DNA from: Clostridiales bacterium
GTDB lineage: Bacteria; Bacillota; Clostridia; Oscillospirales; Acutalibacteraceae
NCBI GenBank assembly: GCA_021199275.1
Contig: JAJQIJ010000013.1
Location: 16,913-80,912 of the forward strand
Length of the DNA: 64,000 nucleotides
Direction: 5' to 3'
Shown: one piece after another, positions 5,292-62,700 of the stretch
How the letters are laid out: each line of letters begins with the position of its first letter
Numbering within the stretch: position 1 is the stretch's first letter
The notes under the pieces: generated by a model
Database searches by the model: none
Seen by the model: the letters and a program-made list of their open reading frames with translations, nothing else
What the model was told of the DNA's origin: nothing
Made by a program: the position numbers and the translations under genes

Positions 5292-6344
5292 ATGAAGCTG
5301 CAATTTAATGAAAACAAAGAATTTAAAATATTGGCTGTTGCCGATTTGCAGGACACAGACAAGCCCCAGCGTGAAAGCACAGACATGCTTAATAACGCCG
5401 TTGAAAAAACAGCGCCTGACCTTATTGTGTTTTTGGGAGACAATATAGCGGGCGACTTCCCCGGTGTTGACAAAGAAAAAACCCGCACGGCGCTTAAAGC
5501 GGCGTTTGGCTCAATTAATGAAAGGGGCATTCCGTTTGCGCTGGTTTTCGGCAATCATGACCATGAAGGGCTGGCAAACGCTGAAAACAATATGCCTGAA
5601 ATTCAGGCAAAGGAATATATGCTTGACGTGTGCCGGAGCTTTGAATACTGCCTTGCCGAAAGGGGCTGTTGCAAAGCTTCGGTGGGCAATTACAACCTGC
5701 CGCTTTATGATTCGGACGGCGAAAAAATTGTGTGTAATTTATGGTTTATGGACTCCGGCACTTATGCCCCCGGCGGCGGCTATGGTTATGTAAGCGAAGA
5801 GCAAACAGAATGGTATCAGCAAACCGCGCTCAGCCTGAAAAAGCAAAACGGCGGCTGCCCGGTGCCCGCATTGCTGTTTCAGCACATTGCCGTGCCTGAA
5901 GTTTACCGGCTTTTAAAAGAAAGTAAAATATACCTGCCGAAAAGCGTAAAGGGGCAAACTGCAATGTTCAGGCATTTTTACAGAAAGTCTGCGGCAGTTG
6001 TTCAGGGCGGGGTTTATGAAGCGCCCTGCTGTGCCGACGTGCCCCACCGCCAGTTTGAAAGCTGGAAAAACACGGGCGATATTACGGGCGCTTTTTTCGG
6101 GCATGACCATGTAAACGATTACATGGGAAATGTTGACGGCATTTTCCTTACGGCAGTGCCCGCCGCAGGTTATTACAGTTATGGCATGCACCACGGCGTG
6201 CGCACAATTACCATTTGCGAAGACAGACCGGCTGCGTTTGAAAGCGAAATTATTACTTCCGCCGAATTGCTGAAATACAAGGTAAAGCCAAGATATAAGG
6301 CGCGCCACGGGTTTTATGAATACAGCCAAAAATTTAAAAAATAA
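5292..6344 (+). CDS. Metallophosphoesterase (calcineurin-like)
   Basis: ILAVADLQDT, VFLGDNIAG, VFGNHDHEG, FFGHDHVNDY motifs. Confidence 0.88.
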   Translation: MKLQFNENKEFKILAVADLQDTDKPQRESTDMLNNAVEKTAPDLIVFLGDNIAGDFPGVDKEKTRTALKAAFGSINERGIPFALVFGNHDHEGLANAENNMPEIQAKEYMLDVCRSFEYCLAERGCCKASVGNYNLPLYDSDGEKIVCNLWFMDSGTYAPGGGYGYVSEEQTEWYQQTALSLKKQNGGCPVPALLFQHIAVPEVYRLLKESKIYLPKSVKGQTAMFRHFYRKSAAVVQGGVYEAPCCADVPHRQFESWKNTGDITGAFFGHDHVNDYMGNVDGIFLTAVPAAGYYSYGMHHGVRTITICEDRPAAFESEIITSAELLKYKVKPRYKARHGFYEYSQKFKK

Positions 6345-6475
6345 CTTAGGGGGAAATGTCCCCGCCTCTACAGGCGGCTCTGTCCGATTTTGAAGGAGCG
6401 GTGAGTACAATCTCCCGCTGGGGGCGGCAGCGGCTGTCGCCCCCCACGTTGAATAACGGGCAAGCTCTTATTGAA
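6342..6475 (+). repeat. Copy R1 of a ~134-bp interspersed structured repeat
   Basis: taacttagggggaaatgtcccc...caagctcttattgaa; matches the reverse complement of 22563-22696 along its length; begins at the stop codon of the metallophosphoesterase. Confidence 0.85.
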
Positions 6476-11351: not shown

Positions 11352-11870
11352 ATGAAAAAAATATATAAAATAAAGAAAAAGCTAACTATTTCAAAGCCTG
11401 TTTTAAGCTCTGCGCCTGAAACATCAAAAAAAGAGACGCAGGCAAATACGCAGGAAATATTTAAAGCAATGGAAATTTACATTCAGGAATATATTCACAG
11501 AGACAAATGCTTGTGGAAACAAAGTTTTACTTTTTATTACGCAACATTGATTGTGATTTTTGCACCTTATTTTACTAACCTATTTAACATGCCTGAACAG
11601 TTTCTAAACAAAATGTGGCTGTTCCCGGCCGCAGGCGTTGTTATGGCGTTAATATTTTTATTTCGGGCATTTTCGCTTGGAAAAAGATTTCAGGCAATAA
11701 GCTTTACATATGATAAACTTATAAAAAGCCTGCCGAAGCAATTGCAGCGTGAATCAATAGAAAACAAATTTTCCGGCAAAACAAGAAAAATTAAAATATA
11801 TTTGTTGCCGTTTTTAATGTTTTTGTCTCTTTTCATTTTAAGCATTGTTATGCTTTGTTTTGTTCAATAA
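11352..11870 (+). CDS. Hypothetical two-TM membrane protein
   Basis: HRDKCLWKQSFTFYYATLIVIFAPYF + second TM hairpin; good promoter; visibly AT-rich. Confidence 0.7.
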   Translation: MKKIYKIKKKLTISKPVLSSAPETSKKETQANTQEIFKAMEIYIQEYIHRDKCLWKQSFTFYYATLIVIFAPYFTNLFNMPEQFLNKMWLFPAAGVVMALIFLFRAFSLGKRFQAISFTYDKLIKSLPKQLQRESIENKFSGKTRKIKIYLLPFLMFLSLFILSIVMLCFVQ

Positions 11871-11887
11871 AGGCAAGCCCTTATTGA
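11863..11887. repeat. Short inverted repeat TTCAATAA...TTATTGA
   Basis: ttcaataaaggcaagcccttattga; shares end motif with the 134-bp repeats; contains the stop codon of the upstream ORF. Confidence 0.6.
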
Positions 11888-21278: not shown

Positions 21279-21308
21279 ACCGCCGTGCAAATGCACGGCG
21301 GTTTTTTT
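21279..21308 (+). terminator. Intrinsic terminator after galE
   Basis: AACCGCCGTGCAaatGCACGGCGGTTTTTTT. Confidence 0.92.
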
Positions 21309-21310
21309 AT

Positions 21311-21437
21311 TTAATAAGGGCTTGAGAGTTATTCAACTTGGGCGACAGCCGCTGCCGCCGCCCCCCGGCGGGAAATTGTGCTGCTGCTGCCGACAAAACC
21401 AAGCGGCTAAAGCATACTATAGAAACCGGGGGCAGCT
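21311..21437 (-). repeat. Copy R2 (diverged) of the interspersed repeat
   Basis: ttaataagggcttgagagttattcaacttgggcgacagccgctgccgcc matches the distal half of R1/R3; the gene-proximal half is diverged. Outer boundary uncertain. Confidence 0.65.
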
Positions 21438-21695
21438 TCATTTAATTACAATAACGGCTATTATTATATCTATTACAAACATAAAAAGGGCAATGACGCC
21501 CGCAACAGCAGACTTTTTGCCAAGCTCTTTTATTTCAGCGGGGCAGTCTTTCATTTTTGCATTAATAACTGCGGGCACAACAATGCCTATAACGCCAAAG
21601 GCAGGGCAAATGCCTATTGTGCACACCCCTATTATTGAACTTATAAACGCAAATCGCGAAAGTCTGTATAAAATGTCATTACTGTTGTCTTGCAT
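21438..21695 (-). CDS. Small membrane protein of unknown function
   Basis: 85 aa, two hydrophobic segments. Confidence 0.55.
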   Translation of the reverse strand: MQDNSNDILYRLSRFAFISSIIGVCTIGICPAFGVIGIVVPAVINAKMKDCPAEIKELGKKSAVAGVIALFMFVIDIIIAVIVIK

Positions 21696-21784: not shown

Positions 21785-22474
21785 CTAAGTTATTTCATAT
21801 TTAATAATGATTCTGTCAAGCTTTTTAATAAACGGCTTGCCCAGCAGAAAAAGAAACAGCGCGGTTGCGCCTGCAAACACCGCGTTAAACGGCATGCCTG
21901 CGGCATATACTGCCAAAACGGACTCAAGGCTTGGCTTTTGTACTATAATAAGCACGGTGCACAAATCAACAATAAGCCCGTAAAATATAAACACCAGCAA
22001 AAAGCCGCATATTGCCAGGCCGATTTTTGTAATTTTTACATGTTTGAAAATAACGCCCGCCAGAAAGCCTATTGTTCCGAGCGCCACCATTTGAAACGGA
22101 GTCCATATTCCCTGGCCGAAAAGAAAATTTGAAATAAAAGCCGAAAATGCGCCTATAACATAGCCCCTGCGCGCGCCCATGCCGGCCCCAGAGCAAATCA
22201 CAACCGCCGCTATGGGCTTAAACTGCGGCACATAATAAAACACGGCGCGTGAAACAACCCCAAGCGCAATAAGCACGGCCATAAGCGCAAGCTCGCGCGA
22301 CTTTATTTTTTTGCTTTCGACACTGAAAAGAAACGGCAGCGCAGATATAGCCAGCACCATTGCCGAAACAAGATAATAAGAAGTGGCGGCTGAAAAAAAT
22401 ATTTGCCACAAAATTATTATTGCAAGAGACAAAATAATTGCCCCGAAAGACAATATTTGCGCATTTCTTTTCAT
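21785..22474 (-). CDS. ECF transporter S component, probably cobalamin (CbrT-like)
   Basis: RELALMAVLIALGVVSRAVFYYVPQFKPIAAVVI, ISNFLFGQGIWTPFQM; adjacent to EcfA/EcfT/CobO. Confidence 0.8.
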   Translation of the reverse strand: MKRNAQILSFGAIILSLAIIILWQIFFSAATSYYLVSAMVLAISALPFLFSVESKKIKSRELALMAVLIALGVVSRAVFYYVPQFKPIAAVVICSGAGMGARRGYVIGAFSAFISNFLFGQGIWTPFQMVALGTIGFLAGVIFKHVKITKIGLAICGFLLVFIFYGLIVDLCTVLIIVQKPSLESVLAVYAAGMPFNAVFAGATALFLFLLGKPFIKKLDRIIIKYEIT

Positions 22475-22562
22475 CACACACCGCCTTTCCGTAAAACAAT
22501 GGTAATTAAACACACCCGCACACAGCCTGCCGCCGGTTGCGGCTTAAAGCCAATTGGCACAA

Positions 22563-22696
22563 TTCAATAAGGGCTTGAGAGTTATTTAACATTGGGGAGG
22601 CAGCCGCTGCCGCCCCCAGCGGCAGATTGTAATAACCGCTTCTTCAAAATCAGACCCCGCCGCCTGTAGAAGCGGGGGACATTTCCCCCTAAGTTA
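22563..22696 (-). repeat. Copy R3 of the ~134-bp interspersed structured repeat
   Basis: Reverse complement taacttagggggaaatgtccccc...caagcccttattgaa; begins at the ecfA stop codon. Confidence 0.85.
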
Positions 22697-24181
22697 TTTT
22701 TCGTTTAAAACACCGGCTATGTCATTAGTGCTGACCGCCCTGCCTGAGCTCAGCCGTGCAAGGGCTGTGGTGTACATGTCAAATGACGAAAAATAGCGTT
22801 TCGGCGTTTGTGTGCACATAATTTCGCCGCCGAAAATAAGAGAAACAAAGTCTGCATATTTTGCGGCAAATTCCAAATCATGCAAGGCAATAACAATTGT
22901 TTTGCCGCTGTCTGCCAGACTATGCAGCATTTCGGCAAGTTCGCGTTTAAACACGGCGTCAATACTTTTTGTGGGCTCGTCCAGCAGCAAAATATCCGCC
23001 CCGCTATTTACCACCTTTGCAAGCGCAAGGCGCTGCTGTTCGCCAACGCTCAAATCAAACGGCGAACGCTCTGCAAGCCCGTCAAGCAAAAATTCTTTCA
23101 AAACAGCATTACTTCCCGCCTCCTGCAAAACGGTGTCATGCAAAAAAAGGGTTTTTATGTTTTGCGGCAAATAGGCGGTTTTTCCGCTTACCTTTATTTT
23201 GCCACAGCTGCATTTCAGCACAGACGAAAGACATTTTAACAGCGTTGTTTTTCCGGTGCCGTTTGCGCCGACTATTGCATTTATTTTACCGGCATATGCT
23301 TTAAAATTAAGTTCTGAAAGCACGCTGCTGCCCTTTTCATATGCAAAAGAAATATGCTTTGCCGAAACGGCGGCGGCGCATTTTTCAGCTGCCTGTTCGC
23401 TTTCTTTATAAACCAACATGCCCGCGCTTTTTTTTGCCGCTGAAAAATCAACCGGGTGACCCGGCAAGACAAGGCTATATGGCGGCAAAATGTCTTTCAT
23501 GTCTTCATCATTTTCAACAAGAAAATCTGCCGCCGCCTGCCCAGGCAGGCAAAATTTAAGCCGCCCGGAATCAAGCAGGGCCACTTTATCTGCCGCCGCC
23601 ATAAGAGCGCCTGCGCGGTGTTCCGCAATAACAACGGTAATGCCGGCTTCGCGCCGCAGCTTTAAAACAGTGTTTATAAAAAGCTCTGCCGAAACCGGGT
23701 CCAGCTGCGACGTGGGCTCGTCCAGCAGCAAAATATCCGGCGAGGAGCTCATTACACAGGCAAGGCTCAGCATTTGCTTTGTGCCGCCCGAAAGCACGGA
23801 CGTTTTACTGTCAATAACGTCTGTAAGGTTAAAATAATTAGCCGCTTCGGCAATTTTGCAAAGCACTTTCTTTCTGTCATAGCCCATATTAGACGGCAAA
23901 AACGCCAGCTCGCCGAAAACTGTGTCTGTTATAATATTACTTTCCACATGCTGGTTTAAAATTGCCGTGTTTTCTGTGTTTGTGCTGACTTCACCGCTGA
24001 TTATGCCATGGGGCGCGGCTTCTTTTTTCAGCAGCTGTAAAAGGGTTGATTTGCCGCTGCCCGATTTTCCAATCAGCAGGCACAGCTCGCCCTCTTCAAT
24101 TTCAAGGCTAACCCTGTCAAGTGCTTTTGCTTTACAGCCGGGGTATGTAAAGCTCAGCTCTTTAATTTCAATCTGAGCCAT
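22694..24181 (-). CDS. ECF transporter double ATPase (two ABC domains)
   Basis: Two Walker A motifs (GKSGSGKST, GANGTGKTT) and two Walker B motifs (ILLLDEPTSQLD, ILLLDEPTKSID). Confidence 0.92.
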   Translation of the reverse strand: MAQIEIKELSFTYPGCKAKALDRVSLEIEEGELCLLIGKSGSGKSTLLQLLKKEAAPHGIISGEVSTNTENTAILNQHVESNIITDTVFGELAFLPSNMGYDRKKVLCKIAEAANYFNLTDVIDSKTSVLSGGTKQMLSLACVMSSSPDILLLDEPTSQLDPVSAELFINTVLKLRREAGITVVIAEHRAGALMAAADKVALLDSGRLKFCLPGQAAADFLVENDEDMKDILPPYSLVLPGHPVDFSAAKKSAGMLVYKESEQAAEKCAAAVSAKHISFAYEKGSSVLSELNFKAYAGKINAIVGANGTGKTTLLKCLSSVLKCSCGKIKVSGKTAYLPQNIKTLFLHDTVLQEAGSNAVLKEFLLDGLAERSPFDLSVGEQQRLALAKVVNSGADILLLDEPTKSIDAVFKRELAEMLHSLADSGKTIVIALHDLEFAAKYADFVSLIFGGEIMCTQTPKRYFSSFDMYTTALARLSSGRAVSTNDIAGVLNEK

Positions 24182-47507: not shown

Positions 47508-47679
47508 ATGCAACTAAATAATTTAGGCAAGAAATATCCCCCGCCCTGTAATGCTGCGGGGAGCGCCTTTTTTCTTGGGTGAAAATCACAACTCACCTTG
47601 CCGGGGCGGTATCGGCTGAAAAGGCGGGGCAATCTTCGCATCTTTTGCCGGCAAGGCGCCGCTTTGGCCACATTTGCTA

Positions 47680-56844: not shown

Positions 56845-57204
56845 AAAAAAACCTGACAGCAGTATTACACTGCCGTCAGGGACGATTTTTAATCGCGGTA
56901 CCACCCTGTTTTGCGGAAAACCCGCACACTCTTGCAAGATACTATCATATCTTTGACCGATTAACGCAGGTCTGCACGTTGCGTTATACTAAGCTTAAAG
57001 CTTTTCTGCGCACCCTCAGCGGGCCATTTGGCAGGCCGTTTATTACCCCTTTCCAGCAACGGGGCTCTCTGTAAATTCGTGCTTTGCCTTTATTTCCGCT
57101 TCAACGGTTTGATTTTATTAAATTTGTAAAGCGCCGTGGCGCTTGCCGCAGGCTTTTGCGCCGGCTTAAAACACAAGCGCTTTTAAAATGATGTTTTCAT
57201 TTCA
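56845..57204 (-). ncRNA. T-box leader (tryptophan) upstream of trpEGDCFBA
   Basis: AGGGTGGTACCGCG (~56907-56894), terminator 56880-56852 plus T run, ACAGAGAGCCCC...AAAUGGCCCGCUGAG stem I with UGG specifier at 57026-57024. Confidence 0.93.
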
Positions 57205-58369: not shown

Positions 58370-58493
58370 GCGCTGCCCCCCCTTTTACTTTTTATTTGCG
58401 GCGGCGCCGTTTCTTTGACGCAGATATACCGGCGTATATTAAAACAAAAAATGGCGCAGGGTGCTAAAATTATCGCTTTGGGCTGTTCTGTTC

Positions 58494-61315: not shown

Positions 61316-61377
61316 TCAATAAGGGGCAAAGCCCCGTTTAGGCGCCCAATTAAGGGCAAGCTCTTATTGAATATATA
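61316..61377. repeat. Short repeat bounded by TTCAATAA / TTATTGAA
   Basis: ttcaataaggggcaaagccccgtttaggcgcccaattaagggcaagctcttattgaa; shares the distal end with R1/R3. Confidence 0.65.
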
Positions 61378-62216: not shown

Positions 62217-62257
62217 GTTAAAGCTCCTTTTTTGATAATGATTTGATAATGATATAA

Positions 62258-62363
62258 AGGCCCAAGCGACAGCCGCTGCCGCCCCCCCGCGTGAGATTGT
62301 ATTCACGCTGATTAAAAGCCGGACCCCGCCGCCTTACGAAGCGGGGCATTTCCCGCTAAGTTA
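62258..62363 (-). repeat. Copy R4 (partial) of the interspersed structured repeat
   Basis: Reverse complement taacttagcgggaaatgccccgc...ggcggcagcggctgtcgc; overlaps the hypA stop codon; lacks the TTATTGAA end. Confidence 0.75.
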
Positions 62364-62700
62364 TTTTTATTTCTTTTATTATAAACTCGCGCCCGCTGAT
62401 TATTTTGCCCGCGCCTGACGAACAATGCGGGCATATGAAATCACTTTCACGCGGGTTATATTTTGTTTTACACTGCGTGCATTCGCAAAGCGCCGGCAGC
62501 GTTTCTGTTTTAAGGCGGCTGTCTTTTAGCAGCTCATAATCTTCCTTTAGCATTGAATGATATGTTTGCAGGCATTCACCCACAACATCACTGAGCTCGC
62601 CTATCTGCACAACTATTTCAGGCACTGACTTGGCGCCGTTTTCGCGCGCATATTTGTCTGCCGTTTTCATTAAACGGTCTGCAATTGAAAGTTCATGCAC
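62356..62700 (-). CDS. hypA: Nickel metallochaperone HypA
   Basis: MHELSIADRLMK; CECTQCKTKYNP...FICPHC zinc site. Confidence 0.93.
   Translation of the reverse strand: MHELSIADRLMKTADKYARENGAKSVPEIVVQIGELSDVVGECLQTYHSMLKEDYELLKDSRLKTETLPALCECTQCKTKYNPRESDFICPHCSSGAGKIISGREFIIKEIKIT

Follow-up and report, generated by a model that had tools for sequence, protein, structure and literature searches.

Small repeats of bacterial genomes and the copies in the window

Integron attC sites take the form of a folded strand and often begin at the stop codon of the upstream gene, and enterobacterial ERIC sequences are structured, dormant, intergenic repeats of ~100-150 bp that occur in high copy. Pneumococcal BOX and RUP elements end in terminal inverted repeats and duplicate their targets (PMC3049150). 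REPs are palindromes of 20-40 bp tagged GTAG or CGTC (PMC3733652), and REP/REPIN sequences occur as more than 100 extragenic, palindromic copies, some of them directly behind stop codons; in E. coli, translation is affected by REPs that lie no more than 15 nt from a stop codon (PMC12306157). IS200/IS605-derived ends-only elements (PATEs) are non-coding, cause no target duplication, have a fixed short 5' target, lack terminal inverted repeats and carry hairpins near both ends (PMC7290912).

The repeat characterized here appears to work most like PATEs. It inserts on the 3' side of a short, fixed target that is not duplicated (TATAA^T, one precise empty site), is non-coding, has no terminal repeats and carries subterminal hairpins, with hairpin 1 and the 3' hairpin conserved in its type II form. 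Unlike PATEs, it has a conserved multi-hairpin cloverleaf with a closing stem, its three copy-richest genomes yielded no Y1 transposase, and neither a sequence link to an IS nor an autonomous IS sharing its ends was found. To our knowledge, a conserved cloverleaf is not familiar from IS200/IS605 ends. We do not claim membership because transposase and parent IS were sought and not found. With REP/REPIN sequences and their RAYT the repeat shares a high extragenic copy number, palindromic character and some copies directly behind stops, but it is ~131 bp long, has other ends and is not accompanied by a detectable Y1/RAYT gene in its own genome. As for BOX and RUP, it is ~100-150 bp long, intergenic, structured, dormant and present in high copy in one species (PMC3049150), but it lacks terminal inverted repeats and target duplication, sequence comparison having covered Rfam, phage and plasmid collections. 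Viewed as a phenomenon, it groups with ERIC, BOX and RUP, being small, intergenic and high in copy number.

The window, a stretch of 64,000 nucleotides analysed as a whole, holds four copies (R1 to R4), each located downstream of a gene on the same strand, together with isolated pieces:

6342..6344, plus strand: TAA at the left junction of R1, derived from the target and serving as stop codon to the metallophosphoesterase gene 5292-6344 (empty-site junction position, gene coordinates)
6345..6475, plus strand: R1, full-length copy of the element proper (CTTAGG...CTCTTATTGAA), E 1.0e-31
21308..21452, minus strand: R2, strongly diverged copy after the gene 21438-21695, right end well kept (C38:38220-38364), E 4.1e-12
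22563..22693, minus strand: R3, full-length copy of the element proper, E 5.9e-29
22694..22696, minus strand: TAA derived from the target, at which the double ABC ATPase (ecfA-like) gene stops
22694-24181 / R3 / 21785-22513, all minus strand: setting of R3, ABC-transporter ATPase gene, element, ECF S-component gene
47518..47562, plus strand: isolated left end, a fragment (C38:64430-64474), E 2.5e-6
61354..61372, plus strand: isolated piece of the right-end hairpin, weak (C38:78266-78284), E 0.0045
62229..62367, minus strand: R4, copy with decayed right end downstream of hypA (C38:79141-79279), E 3.5e-17

A sequence-only reading of this DNA had described R1 and R3 as 134-bp repeats alike from end to end, with R4 and R2 as further copies. 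Sequences and coordinates hold, with 85% identity across all 134 positions (6342-6475, plus strand, vs 22563-22696, minus strand), and the two further copies are recovered by the covariance model; the full match for R4 is 62229-62367 compared with the 62258-62363 given earlier. The product of the gene preceding R1 matches Pfam Metallophos (PF00149). The stop codon of hypA is a TAG inside R4 (d = -8), and the HypA profile (PF01155) is covered over 2-112 of 112, i.e. to its end. No transcription terminator was predicted inside R1, the next one lying 63 bp further on. Stand-alone copies of the 3' hairpin of 18-28 bp occur at window positions 11863-11887 and 61354-61372, at G000 C12:25702 and C9:95597 and elsewhere, and are perhaps solo ends or simple terminators. 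The window also contains a T-box leader (RF00230, 97.8 bits) at 56875-57113 on the minus strand.

A covariance model built from 38 copies identified an interspersed family in the genome (a 98.7% complete MAG of 1.86 Mb in 40 contigs), with 129 matches in total and 109 at E<1e-7, which excludes chance as the source of the likeness among R1 to R4. At ~138 bp each, the matches make up ~1% of the genome. The ends are sharp. In a 43-copy alignment the flanks are unrelated and the shared stretch runs from ATAACTTAGG to CTTATTGAA, with the consensus CTTAGG, then CAAG or GGGG, followed by ..CCCGCC-TCTA-AGGCGGCGGG..hairpin..hairpin..ACGTTGAATAACGGGCAAGCCCTTATTGAA, ~131 bp in all. Nearest-neighbour identity among 38 copies ranges from 78 to 95% (median 85%; closest aligned pair 95%), indicating a family without recent movement whose enzyme may be gone; by this divergence the copies are old. 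Only chance-level matches were obtained from Rfam at gathering and relaxed thresholds, and searches of phage, plasmid and viral-contig collections with both element types gave no match, nor did an exact pattern looked for in genome contigs.

Target site, stop codons and orientation

Copy C2:1786 sits within another repeat family that is found elsewhere without the insert. The intact repeat reads CTAAAGCTATAATTTTAGCACC, and the interrupted one reads CTAAAGCTATAA, then CTTAGG...CTTATTGAA, then TTTTAGCACC. This comparison, a single and paralogous one, gives a base-precise empty site, GCTATAA^TTTTAGC, at which no base is duplicated or lost and a two-base ambiguity (AA) is left; the insertion unit is CTTAGG...TTATTGAA, directly after TATAA. 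Because the junction follows ATAA, the TAA is target sequence and not part of the element. As read from these junctions, the element proper is ~131 bp long and the preceding ATAA is its target. Directly left of the ends, T or A and then A is preferred (W-A-TAA conserved). Some copies carry a second left end directly behind the right end (...TTATTGAA^CTTAGG, i.e. ...TTGAA^CTTAGG, or TTTAA^CTCAGG), which fits insertion after AA and shows the right ends of other copies acting as insertion points too. Flanking duplications did not exceed chance in 85 copies under 240 boundary choices. An empty site was also sought via a mobilisable element of G090 and G091, where relatives match one side only. The dispersed 129 copies and the precise empty site support the earlier suggestion of a mobile or selfish repeat.

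Since the target is ATAA, insertions often land exactly on TAA stop codons, where they are harmless, with others falling on ATAA sites in intergenic gaps. Genes were called in 502 kb of genome stretches with a simple hexamer model, and single calls may be wrong. Distances of the 109 copies from the co-directional upstream stop show one sharp peak, with 18 copies at -3 (the TAA before CTTAGG); three copies, hypA included, lie at -8, where the internal TAG is the stop, and every other distance is represented by at most two copies. Insertion in random frame would give about equal use of the first TAA and the internal TAG, whereas the 21 copies with a stop on one of them divide into 18 and 3. This argues against the proposal that insertions are tolerated because the element carries stops, as do the empty site, which assigns the TAA to the target, and the native stops of hisB and glnS, the two orthologues compared. 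In relatives without the element, readable HisB C-termini end in LSTKGVL, mostly followed by TAA, and hisA starts at an overlapping ATG in several of them; in this genome hisB has the same LSTKGVL end and TAA, then the element, then hisA. The glnS of relative L185 likewise has an equivalent end with TAA and no element. The TAA at R1 and R3 and the TAG at hypA are indeed stop codons, and the repeat does supply the stop at hypA and two other genes, where the TAG lies inside the element, but not at the TAA copies, where it is target-derived.

Stop-codon cases number 16 vs 5.1 expected from ATAA availability (Poisson p ~9e-5), the null consisting of element-free WATAA sites in the same gaps and two of the 18 cases having no gap class. 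The simplest guess for this roughly threefold excess is selection against insertions elsewhere in short gaps. The association with stop codons is strong, and most of this pattern is explained by the target motif. The family illustrates how a compact genome of 1.9 Mb can host a mobile repeat at over 100 sites: a target coinciding with the commonest stop codon allows insertion directly behind genes, even inside operons (hisB-hisA), with the protein unchanged, and annotators should be aware that a repeat seeming to supply a stop codon may merely have used one.

Relative to neighbouring genes, 48 of the 109 copies run with both, 13 against both, 19 lie in convergent and 19 in divergent gaps, one lies within a gene and nine are incomplete. 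Location downstream of a gene of the same orientation, as noted in the sequence-only reading, thus describes all four window copies but is only a bias genome-wide, and exclusive placement in 3' untranslated regions fails given the 19 divergent copies and the 13 against both neighbours. Orientation is nevertheless biased and no Rfam family matches, so that neither of the findings named by that reading as contrary to it, copies placed and oriented at random or identity to an Rfam repeat, was seen. In tandem gaps, with stop-codon cases removed, 38 copies run with and 13 against transcription (p ~6e-4), although target sites are equally common on the two strands (265 v 266), so that transcription direction influences either insertion or survival. 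A replication-strand bias can arise when single strands insert into the lagging strand. Because GC skew tracks gene strand, strand counts were limited to convergent and divergent gaps, where copies divided 16 v 13 when scored by gene strand and 16 v 11 when scored by GC skew, with no clear link to the leading strand. Two copies (L091, C38:108504; L013, C33:16716) lie directly behind a promoter-like TTGAC...TATAAT, as read by eye, and here the following gene may have the element as its 5' leader.

Conserved fold and the search for a mobiliser

The type II fold, written on a 13-sequence alignment, consists of a closing stem, three hairpins and a 3' hairpin. Of its 45 pairs, 10 are changed on both sides, hairpin 2 showing such changes in 7 of 12 pairs, and none of 500 shuffles reached the covariation score. 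Cells are paired in 90% of cases vs 46-52% for slid versions, a control that is flattering since the structure was drawn from one aligned sequence, which leaves the two-sided changes unaffected. In type I, aligned from four species, pairing reaches 89.5% over two hairpins and the closing stem, with 6 two-sided pairs, the 3' hairpin having been left out of this count owing to alignment register. The cloverleaf and 3' hairpin are therefore conserved across species by compensatory changes. For lone strands of three representatives, folding energies lie far under those of shuffles whether computed as DNA or as RNA (z -4 to -10), and folding of the window copies is weaker (z -3.7 for R1, -1.3 for R3). 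Copies of this genome taken by themselves retain the fold poorly (9 pairs by RNAalifold), which is to be expected at their age, and pairing between their 5' and 3' closing-stem modules is no more than suggestive (Fisher p = 0.05).

Conservation of the fold by compensatory changes suggests that a single-stranded form, which would be DNA rather than RNA, probably matters for movement. We consider it fairly likely that this is a mobile, non-autonomous DNA element of ~131 bp which inserts 3' of (A/T)ATAA without duplication and was moved in trans by a Y1/HUH-type enzyme. Such a transposase would cut and insert a single strand, as for IS200/IS605-derived ends-only elements, and may since have been lost or be missing from the assembly. 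A Y1 transposase (PF01797) was not found in this genome, whose 98.7% completeness leaves room for loss or non-assembly, nor in G021 or G055, the other two with most copies found. The domain scores above the family cut-off in 37 of 80 genomes of the genus, so that Y1 presence does not track the repeat. A whole-genome search with separate end models (121 left and 123 right ends) revealed no left-gene-right pair that could represent an autonomous copy. Candidate left and right pairs came down to one copy interrupted by a MITE and to ends lying near each other by chance. With its clear family, conserved folded strand, exact junctions and target motif, and with no mobiliser found, the repeat poses a tractable search problem.

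Another interspersed repeat, ~276 bp long and with TTAAGCAATCGGGAGGCGAACAG as its inverted ends, was also seen (G000 C9:27133-27408, C15:113-386, C38:153347-153620). A fragment of it lies at window 58447-58493, one copy interrupts a copy of the element and another fragment hosts one.

Alternative readings and distribution in the genus

The same observations can be arranged differently. If the cloverleaf without terminal inverted repeats were the recognition feature of an enzyme other than Y1/HUH, the repeat would represent a genus-restricted class that inserts after ATAA with no target duplication and finds safe landing sites in stops; we hold this possibility to be unlikely, if deserving of some weight. 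An ordinary MITE, having terminal inverted repeats, a DDE transposase as its mover and target duplications decayed by age, would agree with the old copies (median nearest-neighbour identity 85%) and with the inverted arms AACATTTG...CAAATGTT of type II. These arms, however, are not terminal: in AACATTTG/CAAATGTT the right arm is internal and a further 3' hairpin belongs to the element. As there is also no target-site duplication, neither at the empty site nor as an excess of flanking repeats over 85 copies, we regard a MITE as improbable.

Equally, a structured RNA module that serves the host from untranslated regions (mRNA stability, attenuation), multiplied by duplication and with orientation under selection, would account for the 38 v 13 bias towards transcription in tandem gaps (p ~6e-4) and the RNA fold (z down to -9.7), and the effect of E. 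coli REPs near stops on translation (PMC12306157) provides a precedent. Set against this are low or zero copy number in most of the 80 species of the genus, the lack of an Rfam family, poor conservation of the fold within the genome (RNAalifold 9 pairs), functionally unrelated upstream genes and the 19 copies in divergent gaps, which leave the module little probability. Still harder to accept is a site-specific recombinase acting on the folded strand, as integron integrase does on attC, for which the AAC start, closing stem, hairpins and GTTGAAT near the 3' end would be the sites. The repeat resembles attC in its conserved folded strand, its AAC start with AAC...GTT pairing at the base of the closing stem, a type I GTTGAAT that fits GTTRRRY, the absence of target duplication and its frequent location at an upstream stop. 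It differs from attC in that the left core is not RYYYAAC, the right box of type II (GTTGATG) does not fit GTTRRRY, i.e. the box is lost there, the right boundary lies away from GTT, ~30 bp beyond it, and the copies are single and dispersed with no cassette array. We retain, as the likelier reading, a non-autonomous element mobilised in trans.

Among 80 genomes of the same genus, diverged type I families are present in G092, G091, G059, G055 and G021. Type II (AACATTTG...CAAATGTTGATGTTCGGGC..GCCCTCGATTAAA) has many copies in G021 and G055 and one to three in other species, this genome holding at least three type II copies besides its main family. Most species of the genus are without any copy. 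The family is genus-restricted and undescribed in the libraries searched. The host is probably an uncultured gut-type member of the group of a Ruminococcaceae MAG (RUG13646), which carries the closest glutaminyl-tRNA synthetase among named records; loci neighbouring this synthetase gene contained no copies when scanned with the model. In two species, G091 and G090, a mobilisable element with a MobA-type relaxase and a serine recombinase carries a type II copy in a matching position (L095/L097), a plausible route for the repeat between species. Finally, a 29-bp mini-derivative (CTCAGGCAAGAAACGCACCGTTTATTGAA) composed of two end pieces only follows a full copy in L030 2600-2720 (C16:5635-5705).
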